Shown here: positions 1,571-64,000 of the stretch, piece by piece
How positions within the stretch are numbered: position 1 is the stretch's first letter
Layout of the letters: each line of letters begins with the position of its first letter
NCBI GenBank assembly: GCA_905221605.1
Contig: CAJNDS010002823.1
Span: forward strand, 467,001-531,000
DNA from: Symbiodinium natans
Lineage: Eukaryota; Sar; Dinophyceae; Suessiales; Symbiodiniaceae
Reading direction: 5' to 3'
Length of the DNA: 64,000 bases
Notes under the pieces: generated by a model
Databases searched by the model: none
Seen by the model: the letters and a program-made list of their open reading frames with translations, nothing else
What the model was told of the DNA's origin: nothing
Translations under genes and position numbers: made by a program

Positions 1571-1752
1571 CCTAAACCCTAAACCCTAAACCACTCTAAA
1601 CCCCAAACCACCCTAAACCCTAATCCCTAAACCCTAAACCCTAATTACCCTTAACCCTAAACCCTAACCCTAATCCCGAAACCCTAAACCACCCTAAACC
1701 CTAAACCCTATAAACCCTAATCCCTAAACCCTAAACCCTGAACCCTAAGCCC
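1571..1752 (-). repeat. (CCCTAAA)n telomere-like array
   Basis: Degenerate CCCTAAA units with scattered substitutions. It is the left flank of the exon-like island at 1762-1821. Confidence 0.95.
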
Positions 1753-1761
1753 TGATTGCAC

Positions 1762-1821
1762 CTCCGGCAGGGCAGCCTCGTGGAGCGCCGAGGCGTTGGC
1801 GCGCACCTTCGTTTTGTGGGC
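1762..1821 (-). CDS. Candidate exon, unknown protein
   Basis: On the minus strand a frame of exactly 60 nt runs between an AG (CCGTATAG before 1821) and a GT (GTGCAATC after 1762). It reads AHKTKVRANASALHEAALPE with no stop. The left flank is (CCCTAAA)n and the right flank is a short degenerate TTTAGGG array. The product is not recognised. A 60-nt open frame can occur by chance; support comes mainly from the flanking pattern shared with stronger islands. Confidence 0.35.
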
Positions 1822-1830
1822 CTATACGGT

Positions 1831-1876
1831 TTAAGGATTTAGGGTTTAGGGTGTAGGGTTTAGGATTTAGGGTTAG
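1831..1876 (+). repeat. Short degenerate (TTTAGGG)n array
   Basis: About six diverged units to the right of the 1.8-kb island, opposite in orientation to the array on its left. Confidence 0.85.
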
Positions 1877-1891
1877 TTATACACCCCAGAC

Positions 1892-1996
1892 CCTGGGATG
1901 TTCACCCTTATACTAACAGTCCTTAGTAGAGATTATATTTGATAGGGGGTACCATAATTCTATTAAGGATTGTTAGTACAAGGGGGAACATCCCAA
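1892..1996. mobile_element. Foldback element, family B
   Basis: About 105 bp. It begins with CTGGGATGTTCACCCTTA and ends with the near reverse complement TACAAGGGGGAACATCCCA, with matching inner arms (AACAGTCCTTAGTA and ATTAAGGATTGTTAG). No coding capacity. Similar copies occur at 35.8 and 59.5 kb, and interrupted or partial copies at 2.76, 21.2, 25.4, 25.8 and 30.9 kb. Confidence 0.75.
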
Positions 1997-1999
1997 CCC

Positions 2000-2960
2000 A
2001 GACCCTTTAATTAAGGCTTGGGGAAGGGGGTGGGTGGGATAACTTTAGGGCTTGAATAACTCAGCGTGTTTGGGGGGGCTCAGCCCAGTGTTTGTTGCTG
2101 TCGGGGGGGGAGGGGGGCTTTGGCCTTGTAGGAGGCTTAGGGTTACAGGGTTTGCAGGCTTACAGGGTTTAGGGCTGGGAATTGCATCGTGTTCAGAGCT
2201 GAGGGCTAGGGTTCCCCAGCCCACGTGCTTGATGCGTCAGGGGCGCATGCGCCAAGGCAGCTCGCTGACAGGGTACGAGCTTCCTCGGCTGAAAAAAGGG
2301 GGGCGTGACATTTGAACTCAACTGCAACCTCCGCGCAGAAACCGCCCTAAAACCTATGACCCTATGTGAAACCCTCGGGTGAGGGGTGGGGTACCTTTGC
2401 TGAATGGGTCTGTAAGGGAACCTCAGCCATATAAGAAAAGGCCGAAGCGCACCGCTGGCTCAACACAGGTTCGACCCCAGGGGTGCAGGCTCACATAAAT
2501 ATATTTATGTAATATAGTATACATGGCCTTTTGTGCTATATGATATTGTTGTATGAAGTTTTTAAATATTGTATGATATGATATACGATACTATAGGTTA
2601 ACAATTGCAGAGTACAAGTTCTCTAACTATATTGCATTGTGTGCACAAACAATTCATGTGATCCACTATAGCTCCAGCGCCGTTCCAGAAACCCTGAACA
2701 AATCCCTGTATGCTTTACCGAGCATAATTACCCCCCCCCCCCCCCCCCCGCCCCCTAATACCCATGTTCCCTCCTAAGGACTGTTAGTATAAGGAAACGT
2801 ACCAACCCAAACCCCAAACCCCAAATCCCAAACCCCAAACCCTAAACCCTAAACCCGAAACCCTAGACAAAAAAAAAAAAAACAAAAAAACAAATAACAA
2901 ATCTCCGGCGCTCGACATGCCGCGGTTTCAAGCTGGGATGCTGCGGCTTCAAGCTGTGGC
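2000..2960. other. Intergenic or intronic DNA with simple repeats
   Basis: Contains scattered TTTAGGG-like words, an AT-rich stretch at about 2500-2630, a poly(C) tract at about 2732-2750 followed by a partial family B end (about 2763-2809), a CCCTAAA/CCCCAAA array at about 2812-2866, and an A-rich tract. No gene is supported. Confidence 0.6.
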
Positions 2961-2961
2961 T

Positions 2962-3034
2962 TGGGTTTAGGGTTTAGGGTTTAGGGTTTAGGGTTTCGGG
3001 TTTAGGCTTTAGGCTTTGGGGTTTGGGGTTTGGG
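2962..3034 (+). repeat. (TTTAGGG)n array with variants
   Basis: Telomere-like units drifting into TTTGGGG at the right end. Confidence 0.9.
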
Positions 3035-3636
3035 GGATGTGATTGGGGGTGCACCTTCTGTCGAAAGCGGGCTTCCGAGCACCAGGGGTACTTTGGCATA
3101 TTCAAAGCAACTTTGCGCGTGTCCGGGGTGTCGTGGCATCGATGCTGAAACTCCCAATATAGCACCTAAACCCTATAAACCCTAAACCCTTAACCAGCCC
3201 CCCCCCCCCCCAAAAAAAAAAAAAAAAAAAAAAACGATTAAAATAAAATAAAACATCATAATGCTAAATAAACAAAGTAAAATAAACAATAGAAAAAATA
3301 AAAGAAAATAAAAAAAAATAAAATAAAAGCACCCAGGCCACTCGACGGCACGCATCTCGGACTCTGGAAAAATGGCGGCCCAGAACGCCTGCTGCTCCTG
3401 GAGCTTCACATTCAGGGTGCTTCGGGTTGCGGGCAGGGAGGCTTAGGGGTTTAGGGTTTGGGAAGTTTTTGGTTTAGGGGTTTAGGGGCCCCAAAAGCCT
3501 GGTGGTTCGACTCTCTTATAAGCCCGAAATCACCAACCTCACTGACCCAAAGCGACTCAAATCCCCGAGGCATATAGGCTCCCTCCTTTCAGGCGCGCAA
3601 GAAAACGCAGCAACACCACCGAGGAAGTTTACCTTA
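3035..3636. other. Mixed unique and low-complexity DNA
   Basis: Includes a poly(C)/poly(A) tract at about 3197-3234 and an A/T-rich run to about 3330. Open frames here are low-complexity and are not supported as genes. Confidence 0.5.
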
Positions 3637-3752
3637 ACTCCTGTTTGCTTAAGAACCCCAAAACAATGAAAGATAGTATTCCCTATCTTCCCCTTGCAAG
3701 GGAGAATGGTTCATTATTCGGTTTTTCGGGAGGTTCTTAAGCAAATAGTAGT
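3637..3752. mobile_element. Foldback element, family D
   Basis: Inverted ends: TTTGCTTAAGAACCCC on the left and GGTTCTTAAGCAAATAGTAG on the right, with a second inner palindrome around 3670-3715 (ATTCCCTATCTTCC and the related arm). About 115 bp, noncoding. Related copies lie at about 34.5, 35.34 and 36.2 kb. Confidence 0.7.
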
Positions 3753-61937: not shown

Positions 61938-61940
61938 CTG

Positions 61941-62015
61941 GGTTAGGGTTTAGGGTCTAGGGTTTAGGTTTAGGGTTTAGGGTTTAGGGTTTAGAGTTTA
62001 GGGTTCTGGGTTCTG
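61941..62015 (+). repeat. TTTAGGG array
   Basis: Ends in TTCTGGG units. Confidence 0.93.
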
Positions 62016-62886
62016 GGTTCTGGGTAGGATGTGGCCCAGTCCGTGTGCTGAATTACTCTAGTAGGGTTGACCCCAAAAAGAAGGCCCTAAACCCTAAACC
62101 CTAAAACCCTAAAAGAAGGCTCCGCATGATAGGAGCCCCCCAAGCAGATCATGGCGTTCAGAACCTTCGGGTTGATGTCGGGGGTTGCTCCCAGTTCCCC
62201 CCCCCCCCCCCCCAGGGTGAAACTCAATAGCCTCAATCCCTCAGAGTAAAGTATAGGGAATCCCAGCACTACTTGTCCTTTAACAGGTGTCCAACTTTTT
62301 GGGGTTCACTGTAGGGCGAGGGTTAGATGAAGATGTATCACATGACTATTGGGTTCAGCATTCCCCCGCTCTCTCTCTCTCTATAGTATCAATCTATCTA
62401 TCTGTATATATATATATGACTATACATACATTACTCACAGACATATACGCACAAATATACGTATGTATATACATACACACATGCTCAACATGAAAGTTGC
62501 TTTCTGTTGTGGAGGTGCGAAAAACGCAACTAAATTTTCCTGTCGCGATGAAGCTCCACAGAGATGGTCGAGTGGCTCATCTGATGCGGCACAAAAATCA
62601 TCACAGTTGTAAGAAATCGCACGAGAGATCCTTATGTCTTCTGCAAAAAAAACGAACGGGGAAGCTAGACATTCAATCTAGTCCACCATCATAAACCCTA
62701 AACTTTCCAACCCTAAACACAAAACCCTAAACCCTAAACCCTAAACCTTAAACCCTAAACCCGAAATCCAACCCCCCCACACCCTAAACCCCCAAAAGCT
62801 CAGGCCCCGGGCTGTTGTAAGGTGCGCAGACCTCGGGGGCGCGAGGAAGCATTAGATTCCCCAATGGCTTAGGAATTTGGCTGCTT
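62016..62886. other. Unique DNA with microsatellites
   Basis: Poly(C) at about 62198-62213, TATC/TATA repeats at 62385-62480, CCCTAAA patch at about 62715-62765. A plus frame 62349-62612 (87 codons) has no recognised domain. Confidence 0.45.
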
Positions 62887-62945
62887 GGGTTTAGGGTTTA
62901 GGGTTTAGGGTTTAGGGTTTAGGGTTTAGGGTTTAGGGGTTCAGG
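62887..62945 (+). repeat. TTTAGGG array
   Basis: About eight units. Confidence 0.96.
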
Positions 62946-63564
62946 GTTCCAAAACCCCTAAACACCCCTAAACCCTAAACACCGAACAGAGGAACGCGGC
63001 GTGTCCGGAACTTTAATAAGCGTCATAGTAGTGATGGTAATAGTAGCACCCGACAAAATACTAGTATTAACAGTTTGATGATACGGATGGTCATCATTGC
63101 AACATAGAAAGCACTGCATTGACAGATTGAAGGAACAAGAGAAAGAGAACGAGGGGCGCTGAATGTTCAGGGTATATATATATATATACATATTTGTTTA
63201 TTTTTTTACATATGTATATGTATTTTGATTATTGTTGTTTTTTGTTTTGTTTGGGCGGGGGCGTAAGCCCTAAGACGTAAATCCTAAACTCTAAATCCTT
63301 TCAAGGGTCGAGCAACAGAAAGCGCCGAATCCTAAGCCCCGTAACCCAGCAAAAGCCCTAAACATTAGTAGGTTAACAACTACATGTACCCCAGGGCTCC
63401 GACGACTCCTGTTTGAGGGGGATGCGGGGCCCGCAGACCATACAGCGCGCCATGCGGAGGAGTACGTCGAGGTTAGAGCGGCCACCAAAAACAACCCACA
63501 TACGAGGCTAACTCGTAAACATAGGGCCTAAGTCCAAAAAACGTGGTCGGCAAAAGGAGCCCCT
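62946..63564. other. Unique DNA, no supported gene
   Basis: TA-rich patch at about 63172-63230. Small frames without domains. Confidence 0.45.
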
Positions 63565-63680
63565 TAAAGCCTAAACCCTGAACCCTGAACCCTAAACTCT
63601 AAACCCTCAACCCTAGACCCTAAACCCTAAACCCTAAACCCTAAACCCTAAACCCTAAACCCTAAACCCTAAACCCTAAA
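63565..63680 (-). repeat. CCCTAAA array
   Basis: Near-perfect in the right half, left flank of the last LRR island. Confidence 0.97.
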
Positions 63681-63686
63681 CGCTAC

Positions 63687-63757
63687 AGAGTCGGGGCCCC
63701 CGCGCCCGAAGTGCTCAGGCAACTCAGCAATGCTGTTGCTGCTGAGCCACAGCTCCT
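63687..63757 (-). CDS. LRR exon
   Basis: 71 nt. Acceptor AACTTCCCAG; the minus frame reads ELWLSSNSIAELPEHFGRGG, an LRR core (LWLSSNSIAELPE). Donor GTAGCGTTTAGGG at the edge of the telomere-like array. Confidence 0.6.
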
Positions 63758-63784
63758 CTGGGAAGTTGTTGGCAAAAGTAACAG

Positions 63785-63885
63785 CCTAAGTAATTAGAAC
63801 AGGGCGTTTGGGGGTTATTCTAGTATTTATATAGAGACCATGAGAGAATGCGATTGGTAACTATTCCGACCCTTATATTCCCAAG
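63785..63885. mobile_element. Foldback-like element, family E
   Basis: TAATTAGAACAGGGCG at the left and GGTAACTATTCCGACCCTTA at the right; matches the pattern at 16.75 and 27.4 kb. Confidence 0.5.
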
Positions 63886-63977
63886 ATCCCGAATCTCTCG
63901 TCCTAACCGAAAGGCTCCCTTTATTTAGGTGGACTTTGGGTTATTCGGAGCCTTGTAGGGCCGCTGGGCAGAACATA

Positions 63978-64000
63978 CAGTTTAGGGTTTAGGGTTTAGG
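63978..64000 (+). repeat. TTTAGGG array cut by the window end
   Basis: About three units visible; completes the CCCTAAA-island-TTTAGGG pattern for the 63.7-kb island. Confidence 0.9.

Follow-up and report, generated by a model that had tools for sequence, protein, structure and literature searches.

Telomere-like arrays lie in a preferred direction at most intron ends of two genes in Symbiodinium natans

Results

The window analyzed here is a 64-kb stretch of the genome of Symbiodinium natans, a dinoflagellate from an algal group related to coral symbionts (assembly GCA_905221605.1, contig CAJNDS010002823.1, positions 467,001 to 531,000), and all coordinates refer to it. It contains two minus-strand genes, one for an LRR protein and one for an EF-hand protein, together with 206 TTTAGGG/CCCTAAA-like arrays that make up 12.3 kb of the 64 kb and begin abruptly at 1.57 kb. 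As TTTAGGG is described as the dinoflagellate telomere unit (PMC11453091), these 206 TTTAGGG-type arrays represent interstitial telomeric sequence, with the telomere unit of the organism found in arrays inside a chromosome. The window also encodes a retroelement protein with 99% identity to an S. natans protein.

The two genes were mapped via relatives into 36 exons, 16 to 78 nt in length (median 44), and 34 introns. LRR exons were located by tblastn with P0007, and the relatives used for spliced alignment were P0007 (LRR) and P0018 (EF-hand). A spliced LRR segment aligns with P0007 without gaps over 177 aa (88%), and spliced EF-hand segments align with P0018 without gaps over 105 aa (97%) and 68 aa (93%). 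P0007 is a 535-aa protein whose source looks like a transcript, since the longest source contig is only 1,671 bp. Pfam places the LRR above and a single EF-hand loop below its cut-off, and the motifs named in the first-pass annotation, which was made from the letters of the window, were therefore correct. An AG|G acceptor and a GC (23), GT (9), or GA (4) donor, the borders of dinoflagellate spliceosomal introns, can be placed at all 36 exons, although the edges were picked to fit this rule and the border counts are not independent evidence. The reading frame is kept across 31 of the 34 introns, with E12/E13, E14/E15, and X8/X9 unbridged. Judged from these alignments, the mapped islands between arrays are short exons of genes predicted to be spliced in both cases, as had been proposed for many islands read on the minus strand.

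All features given below are on the minus strand, array directions are those of the sense strand, and the arrays listed are a selection. In the LRR gene, E1 (63704..63755) was found by tblastn with P0007, and the microexons E1b (19 nt; 62813..62831) and E5 (16 nt; 55512..55527) by gapless spliced alignment. Both tblastn with P0007 and spliced alignment place E2 (61856..61894), E3 (61180..61222), E4 (60373..60426), E6 (55204..55236), E7 (54652..54689), E8 (53761..53811), E10 (52728..52768), E11 (52325..52393), E14 (47950..47990), E16 (41860..41903), and E17 (40991..41033); tblastn and spliced alignment likewise place E9 (53234..53276), E12 (51556..51589), E13 (49149..49199), E18 (40034..40087), and E15 (44202..44249), the last of which maps to P0010 and has a donor without a nearby array. 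A TTTAGGG array on the donor side is accompanied by a CCCTAAA array on the acceptor side at E3 (61117..61170 and 61266..61376), E9 (53137..53187 and 53280..53492, the latter stopping 3 nt ahead of the exon), E10 (52576..52699 and 52799..52904), and E17 (40874..40961 and 41040..41139), and the donor-side TTTAGGG array of E11 lies at 52225..52303. The upstream arrays of E12, E13, and E18 are reversed, with TTTAGGG 36 to 54 nt ahead of the acceptor, and both sides of E8 are array-free for 100 bp.

In the EF-hand gene, homology and spliced alignment support X3 (18660..18694), X4 (16293..16323), X6 (14748..14808), X7 (13836..13878), X9 (11888..11920), X10 (11265..11327), X11 (10522..10556), X12 (3950..3995), and X15 (1762..1806). 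X5 (15392..15455), which carries the calcium-binding loop, is supported by Pfam and spliced alignment, and X2 (19710..19768) by P0019 and spliced alignment, the 5' edge being uncertain in both. Spliced alignment also places X3b (17775..17830), whose donor lacks a nearby array; X3c (17211..17288) and X8 (13152..13195; 3' edge uncertain), both without arrays for 100 bp in either direction; X3d (16632..16705), with a reversed donor-side array and an acceptor without a nearby array; X13 (3342..3397), with its nearest donor-side array at 151 nt; and X14 (2247..2283), where the arrays on both sides are reversed. Donor-side TTTAGGG and acceptor-side CCCTAAA arrays flank X3 (18524..18606 and 18708..18797), X4 (16206..16277 and 16389..16497), and X12 (3854..3912 and 4008..4442, the latter with many 8-nt units).

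Within 100 bp of the 36 exons, the donor side carries TTTAGGG in 28 cases, CCCTAAA in 2, and no array in 6, and the acceptor side carries CCCTAAA in 27, TTTAGGG in 4, and no array in 5. The exons mostly lie in gaps of about 100 bp between arrays. TTTAGGG thus usually opens an intron and CCCTAAA usually closes it, as the first-pass annotation had supposed, and 55 of 61 array-bearing exon sides show the expected direction in these two genes on one contig. Agreement at the 19 query exons is complete (36/36 sides), but it partly reflects selection, as the protein queries were drawn from islands with CCCTAAA to the left and TTTAGGG to the right (C-G islands); the remaining 17 exons, which were part of no query, follow the rule on 19 of 25 sides (p = 0.007), with expected-to-reverse counts of 10:2 at donors and 9:4 at acceptors. 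As a control, points outside arrays were drawn at random in the LRR gene: the array within 55 nt downstream was TTTAGGG in 514 of 858 cases and that within 75 nt upstream was CCCTAAA in 468 of 1,140. One or both sides are array-free out to 100 bp at 8 of the 36 mapped exons, and because E8, X3c, and X8 still align as exons with no array within this distance, the arrays are not essential.

A directional pattern is also evident across the window. All 18 places listed in the first-pass annotation have a CCCTAAA-type array to the left and a TTTAGGG-type array to the right; those at 63.7 kb (298 bp), 15.4 kb (176 bp), and 19.74 kb (143 bp) exceed the size of about 60 to 120 bp given for them, and 14 contain a homology-mapped exon, with none at 22.4, 29.0, 29.5, and 33.4 kb. 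In total, the window has 55 C-to-G gaps, 43 of 66 to 158 bp and 32 of 60 to 120 bp. With same-direction neighbors merged, gaps of 66 to 158 bp comprise 43 C-G, 17 C-C, 15 G-C, and 7 G-G, compared with 20.5 C-G gaps (SD 3.3) expected under random orientation, and 43 was reached in none of 20,000 trials. A mapped exon is present in 24 of 44 C-G islands of 60 to 180 bp (the other 20 have none), but in only 1 of 21 G-C, 3 of 22 C-C, and 0 of 10 G-G islands. The reverse pattern occurs too, with a strict G-island-C arrangement at 3 places versus C-island-G at 7. It is clear from these results that the direction of the arrays around exons is far from random, in agreement with the earlier claim. Were the contig simply near a chromosome end, with functionless repeats spreading through its non-coding DNA and sparing the exons, the share of the window taken up by arrays and their abrupt start would be accounted for; exon sparing would produce islands, but neither their direction nor the enrichment of arrays at intron ends, and such a subtelomeric invasion is highly improbable.

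Of the 131 arrays located in introns, 52 are no farther than 60 bp from an intron end, versus 24.6 (SD 3.4) in circular shifts. The arrays are separated from the exon by 9 to 54 nt of unique sequence on the donor side and 3 to 81 nt on the acceptor side. In 8 of the 24 C-exon-G exons, the array ends 3 to 13 nt ahead of the acceptor, and general splicing geometry therefore implies that the branch point is very probably inside the array at these 8 exons. Where both intron ends are over 100 bp away, the arrays are balanced (37 TTTAGGG, 35 CCCTAAA), so the direction rule is local to exon edges; array direction did not differ significantly between intron halves (p = 0.17).

The first and last arrays of the 32 array-bearing introns, 2 of which hold one array only, are ordered GC in 22, GG in 6, CC in 4, and CG in 0, compared with 22.75, 5.25, 3.25, and 0.75 expected from the margins, and the directions of the two ends look independent. 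Predicted folds of the 17 GC introns of up to 1,100 nt join the first array to the last in every case, and in 14 of them the end-to-end pairs outnumber those in every one of five block-shuffled copies, versus 1 of 10 other introns, each intron being folded by itself. Folds across exons would compete with such pairing. The ends are thus able to pair in silico, as had been anticipated, and selection for end pairing alone, as in euglenid nonconventional introns, might be invoked. However, pairing is blind to order, and an intron beginning with CCCTAAA would pair equally well, yet none of the 32 does so; in addition, eight introns with at least two arrays have same-direction ends that cannot pair together. 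Together with the apparent independence of the ends, this argues against the earlier suggestion that pairing explains the direction, and end pairing as the sole selected trait is quite unlikely.

It is also conceivable that the introns were made by an introner-like transposable element with the telomeric arrays as its terminal inverted repeats, since dinoflagellate introns with inverted ends have been described (PMC7789003, PMC10666404, PMC9860276). Consistent with this, and judging by alignment scores, reverse complementarity between the unique flanks of an intron's two ends seems to continue past the arrays (p = 0.001 to 0.011 in 9 overlapping alignment tests; p = 0.84 to 0.91 in the control orientation), and the intron ends may carry inverted repeats that are shorter and not telomeric. 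However, there was no excess of duplex energy for the flanks (p = 0.43) or the 45-nt ends (p = 0.94), and the longest exact match gave p = 0.05 to 0.10. Comparison of the 34 array-masked introns of this window with one another found no common sequence, only short interior and within-intron repeats, and direct repeats at the borders are, by eye, no longer than the splice consensus. An introner-like character applies to the inverted ends, with TTTAGGG first and CCCTAAA last in 22 of 34 introns and set back from the splice sites, but does not extend, within this window, to a family with shared sequence, and we regard an origin from such an element as unlikely.

Alternatively, a gene break could have been capped by telomerase at both ends and the capped ends fused, yielding exon-(TTTAGGG)n-filler-(CCCTAAA)n-exon, in which case each exon island would resemble a tiny chromosome with both ends capped. 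The observed C-exon-G direction and the concentration of arrays at intron ends fit this scheme, and array presence is coupled more across the exon (both sides 28, one side 3 and 2, none 3; p = 0.024) than across the intron (26, 2, 4, and 2; p = 0.13). Island length is also less variable than expected from its components (n = 24, p = 0.024; LRR p = 0.012, EF-hand p = 0.26). Repaired breaks in mammals are reported to gain telomeric repeats, in some cases through telomerase, but the same report rejects telomere fusion as the source of mammalian interstitial repeats (PMC2246262). Moreover, the arrays do not abut the exons, the directions of the two ends look uncoupled, repeat variants common to both ends of an intron were not significant (p = 0.14), and further arrays in both directions lie inside introns. 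Break capping and fusion is thus a doubtful origin, and the broader idea that telomerase caps became intron ends, and that telomere maintenance has thereby supplied Symbiodinium with new introns, can be entertained only tentatively.

Discussion

With moderate confidence, we favor the explanation that interstitial telomeric arrays make up the ends of introns and are retained where their direction is tolerated by splicing, TTTAGGG usually lying ~10 to 55 nt inside the 5' end of the intron and CCCTAAA ~3 to 80 nt ahead of the 3' end. Telomeric repeats may be introduced into introns through slippage or telomerase-type break repair, and those close to exons would survive mainly in the direction usable for splicing. 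A UUUAGGG array downstream of a GC/GA/GT donor would supply repeated GGG runs, and a CCCUAAA array ahead of an AG|G acceptor would be C-rich, would contain no G and therefore no AG, and would offer CUAAAC branch-point-like sites, a branch-point role that we propose from general splicing geometry. In contrast, a reversed array ahead of the acceptor would present one false acceptor (UUUAG|G) after another. Zipping of the complementary ends may also draw the splice sites together. Several observations sit uneasily with this explanation: removal of false acceptors does not by itself readily account for the donor-side bias, arrays should become sparser near exons under simple purging but are enriched there, and reversed arrays occur on both sides of X14, on the donor side of X3d, and ahead of the acceptors of E12, E13, and E18.

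Where introns come from is an old question, and dinoflagellates have been described as fast intron gainers (PMC11453091). Mirrored telomere-like arrays at most intron ends would tie telomere biology to the birth of introns or the recognition of splice sites, and the idea is directly testable in existing Symbiodinium genomes with full-length transcripts, such as the IsoSeq data reported for S. natans and S. tridacnidorum (PMC8045281). For gene-finding programs, the arrays would also be a strong marker of exons down to 16 nt.

Among known systems, the introner elements of Amoebophrya and other dinoflagellates carry inverted repeats at intron ends (PMC7789003, PMC10666404) and share with the introns described here ends able to form a stem, a dinoflagellate host, and non-GT donors. 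The present introns differ in having telomere-like arrays of 17 to 435 nt that are set back from the splice sites, with both arrays within 30 nt of the intron ends, the distance (~30 nt) typical of Amoebophrya, in only 2 of 34 introns. The available text of these two papers makes no mention of telomere sequence in introns, and our literature search found, in the text available for the papers retrieved, no telomere-sequence version of inverted-end dinoflagellate introns. Introners of Symbiodinium microadriaticum, a member of the same genus, also have inverted repeats at intron ends, but are reported to carry TSD and TIR and to form families (PMC9860276), unlike the 34 introns here, which share only the arrays and short interior repeats. 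Interstitial telomeric sequences at repaired breaks are likewise short telomeric arrays inside chromosomes (PMC2246262, PMC7215372), whereas the arrays described here occur at most mapped intron ends and are oriented relative to exons. Plant telo boxes place the same plant-type telomere motif within genes, but as single motifs rather than arrays, mostly in 5' regions and the first two introns (PMC3022908); the word "orientation" does not appear in the main text of that paper. Finally, the nonconventional introns of euglenids and diplonemids are described as lacking conserved borders (PMC12621601, PMC4770533), in contrast to the introns of this window, which can be fitted throughout with AG|G acceptors and GC/GT/GA donors.

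Exon structure of the two genes

The first-pass annotation had proposed that the islands lying between divergent telomere-like arrays are exons, and this holds for part of them: 36 minus-strand exons were mapped by homology, 19 in an LRR gene (E exons) and 17 in an EF-hand gene (X exons), and no mapped exon occupies 20 of the 44 C-G islands of 60-180 bp, that is, array-free gaps with a CCCTAAA-type (C) array at left and a TTTAGGG-type (G) array at right. Ten of these 20 islands fall inside the two gene spans, and ten in the 22 to 36 kb stretch. Translations of islands served as protein queries. 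The first query mixed exons of both genes and gave 11 hits among the 8,000 best candidates scored, including P0007 (535 aa, from source contigs of at most 1,671 bp), P0008 (an Effrenium voratum protein), and P0010. By tblastn, P0007 and P0010 matched a collinear series of pieces on the minus strand between 63.8 and 40.0 kb, amid weak chance matches. A further search gave two hits, P0018 (201 aa) and P0019, recorded as cal-1 of Symbiodinium sp. KB8, both collinear over 18.7 to 1.7 kb. Among the matches listed in these searches, there was no annotated S. natans record of either gene.

Exon edges were set by hand to fit the reading frame, the homologue, and an AG|G acceptor with a GC, GT, or GA donor; exon X2 at 19.7 kb was placed by eye using the first part of P0019. 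The spliced segments contain no stops. For the LRR gene, E1-E12 align with P0007 over 177 aa (88% identity, gapless), E13-E14 align over 30 aa (80%, gapless), and E15-E18 align with P0010 over 61 aa (62%, one gap); for the EF-hand gene, X9-X15 align with P0018 over 105 aa (97%, gapless), and X2-X8 with P0018 over 68 aa (93%, gapless) and with P0019 over 156 aa (61%, three gaps). Three joints, E12/E13, E14/E15, and X8/X9, are unbridged, and the search between E12 and E13 did not locate the P0007 stretch LEEHSLP. Exon length spans 16 to 78 nt, with a median of 44, and the set includes microexons of 19 nt (62813-62831) and 16 nt (55512-55527), for both of which the gapless spliced alignment gives support. 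The EF-hand gene may have a further, first exon at 20344-20447, where an ATG lies near 20430 and sense-strand TTTAGGG flanks both sides; this tentative exon near 20.43 kb is beyond homologue coverage and was kept outside all counts.

Orientation of telomere-like arrays

Scored by 6-mer cover with the units TTTAGGG and TTTTAGGG, the whole window carries 206 telomere-like arrays totaling 12,304 bases. Of the 55 gaps of the C-to-G kind, 43 measure 66-158 bp; gaps of the remaining three kinds vary more widely in length. When same-direction neighbors were merged into 174 blocks, these 43 gaps compared with 20.5 expected under random orientation, and none of 20,000 random-orientation trials reached 43, which bears out the proposal that the arrays are not oriented at random. 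A strict C-island-G pattern matched 11 times at seven places and its reverse, G-island-C, six times at three places; because dinucleotide shuffles expect 0.00 in either direction, chance is ruled out as the origin of the arrays. Assembly error was judged an unlikely source, as array variants and lengths differ from place to place. A pattern search of viral contigs found neither arrangement. Positions 1-1560 are free of telomere-like arrays, with a sharp boundary at 1.57 kb, and a 16-nt unit array containing the telomere motif at 36327-36600 constitutes a telomere-derived higher-order repeat.

On the donor side of the 36 exons, the array within 100 bp is TTTAGGG in 28 cases and CCCTAAA in 2, with no array in 6; on the acceptor side it is CCCTAAA in 27 and TTTAGGG in 4, with none in 5. 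The introns had been predicted to start with TTTAGGG and end with CCCTAAA, and for these two genes on one contig this is mostly the case: 24 of the 36 exons have the predicted array on both sides, and 55 of 61 array-bearing sides agree, although the binomial value of 3e-11 is overstated because 19 exons entered via queries taken from C-G islands. The 17 exons outside all queries have 25 array-bearing sides, of which 19 agree (10:2 at donors and 9:4 at acceptors; p = 0.007). Classified by the sense-strand type of their first and last arrays, the 34 introns comprise 22 GC (TTTAGGG first, CCCTAAA last), 6 GG, 4 CC, no CG, and 2 array-free introns. Two of the ten same-direction introns contain a single array only, and in E7/E8, E8/E9, E15/E16, X7/X8, and X8/X9 the first or the last array is located deep within the intron. 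The margins of the 32 array-bearing introns give expectations of 22.75, 5.25, 3.25, and 0.75 for GC, GG, CC, and CG; the observed counts are close to these, and therefore the orientations of the two intron ends look independent, with the skewed margins leaving little power.

Array cover peaks at 50-74 nt from the splice sites, where TTTAGGG occupies 60% of bases on the donor side and CCCTAAA 54% of bases on the acceptor side. Of 131 intronic arrays, 52 lie no more than 60 bp from an intron end, compared with 24.6 in circular shifts (maximum of 5,000: 38). More than 100 bp from both ends, the two directions stand at 37 to 35, and intron halves do not differ significantly in direction (21:14 and 16:21; p = 0.17), so that, as far as these numbers go, the orientation rule is confined to exon edges. 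The perfection of the arrays is unrelated to how far they lie from the exon (p = 0.44 and 0.43).

The chief rival explanation for this direction sees the arrays as scars left by breaks that telomerase capped and that were then fused, a history that predicts the observed direction without any selection. The reading that we favor, though with no better than even confidence, is that arrays have been retained where their direction is compatible with splicing, and zipping of the intron ends may be an aid. CCCTAAA before an acceptor lacks G and therefore contains no AG; TTTAGGG in that place would present TTTAG|G repeatedly. GGG runs 3' of donors are splicing enhancers in vertebrates. The CCCTAAA array stops 3-13 nt short of the acceptor in 8 of 24 exons, so that a branch point at the usual distance from the acceptor would fall within the array; for exons such as E9, E17, and X10, branch points are predicted to lie inside CCCUAAAC.

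Pairing of intron ends

The stem proposed between intron ends forms in silico, but pairing as the only cause of the orientation is not confirmed. Of the 34 introns, the 27 that measure up to 1,100 nt were folded, each by itself. The first and last arrays pair in every one of the 17 GC introns; none of the other 10, 4 of which have at most one array, shows this pairing. End-to-end pairs exceed all five block-shuffled copies in 14 of 17 GC introns (the exceptions are E6/E7, X6/X7, and X9/X10) and in 1 of the 10 others. Such pairing in modeled folds is what complementarity of the arrays produces and does not demonstrate function. Unique flanks outside the arrays look reverse-complementary within introns by alignment (p = 0.001-0.011; control orientation, 0.84-0.91), but their duplex energy shows no excess (p = 0.43), and the longest exact match between flanks gives p = 0.05-0.10. 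Duplex energy was likewise unremarkable for 45-nt intron ends (p = 0.94 for all 34 introns; p = 0.79 for the 13 other introns) and in the exon control and the across-exon flanks (p = 0.55 each), and sharing of repeat variants is not significant by intron (p = 0.14; alignment score, 0.50) or by exon (p = 0.93; alignment score, 0.10).

There are weak hints that the capped exon, rather than the intron, is the unit. In exons preceded by a C array and followed by a G array (n = 24), the array-free island measures 109 bp on average (SD 23), and its variance of 521 is below the 894 given by the sum of its parts (p = 0.024). The same test gives p = 0.012 for the LRR gene alone, p = 0.26 for the EF-hand gene alone, p = 0.046 for the full set of 28 exons flanked by arrays on both sides, and p = 0.0006 without two exons of uncertain edges, which were dropped post hoc. 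The presence of arrays is linked across exons (p = 0.024) more than across introns (p = 0.13).

Comparison with described introns

Roy et al. (2023) is said to be the main paper on dinoflagellate introners. A review gives TTTAGGG as the telomere unit of Dinophyceae (PMC11453091), the group to which Symbiodinium belongs. Inverted-end introns are described in dinoflagellates (PMC7789003, PMC10666404, PMC9860276, PMC11114475). Among the matches listed for telomere repeats, introns, introners, and dinoflagellates, with few subscription papers covered, no title or opening of an abstract describes telomere-repeat intron ends; PMC12730881 concerns a different alga, and no word beginning with telomer occurs in the S. 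natans genome paper (PMC8045281, main text).

Other sequence features

The X11/X12 intron harbors a retroelement-like unit at 5123-10492 flanked by direct repeats of 633 bp (98% identity). It contains minus-strand open frames at 6569-9922 (1,117 aa) and 5820-6644. Over 68% of its length, the longer frame shows 99% identity to the S. natans protein P0003, whose public name, SMG1, looks like a misannotation; this match indicates that the DNA comes from a Symbiodinium dinoflagellate, probably S. natans or a near relation. A Pfam search of this frame returned no domains at E <= 1. Rfam at gathering thresholds and a tRNA scan found nothing. MITE-like short palindromic stretches recur in non-coding DNA (1881-2010, 25451-25566, 59500-59600), and a short repeat is common to several introns (17834-17879, 51369-51490), with one copy immediately preceding the acceptor of exon X3b. 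The 4.8-kb E4/E5 intron contains two large tandem repeat blocks (57729-59012 and 55922-56813), both open in several frames and one built of ~96-bp units of ~95% identity, and a further tandem repeat at 36924-37385, with 22 copies of a 21-nt unit, is open on both strands.
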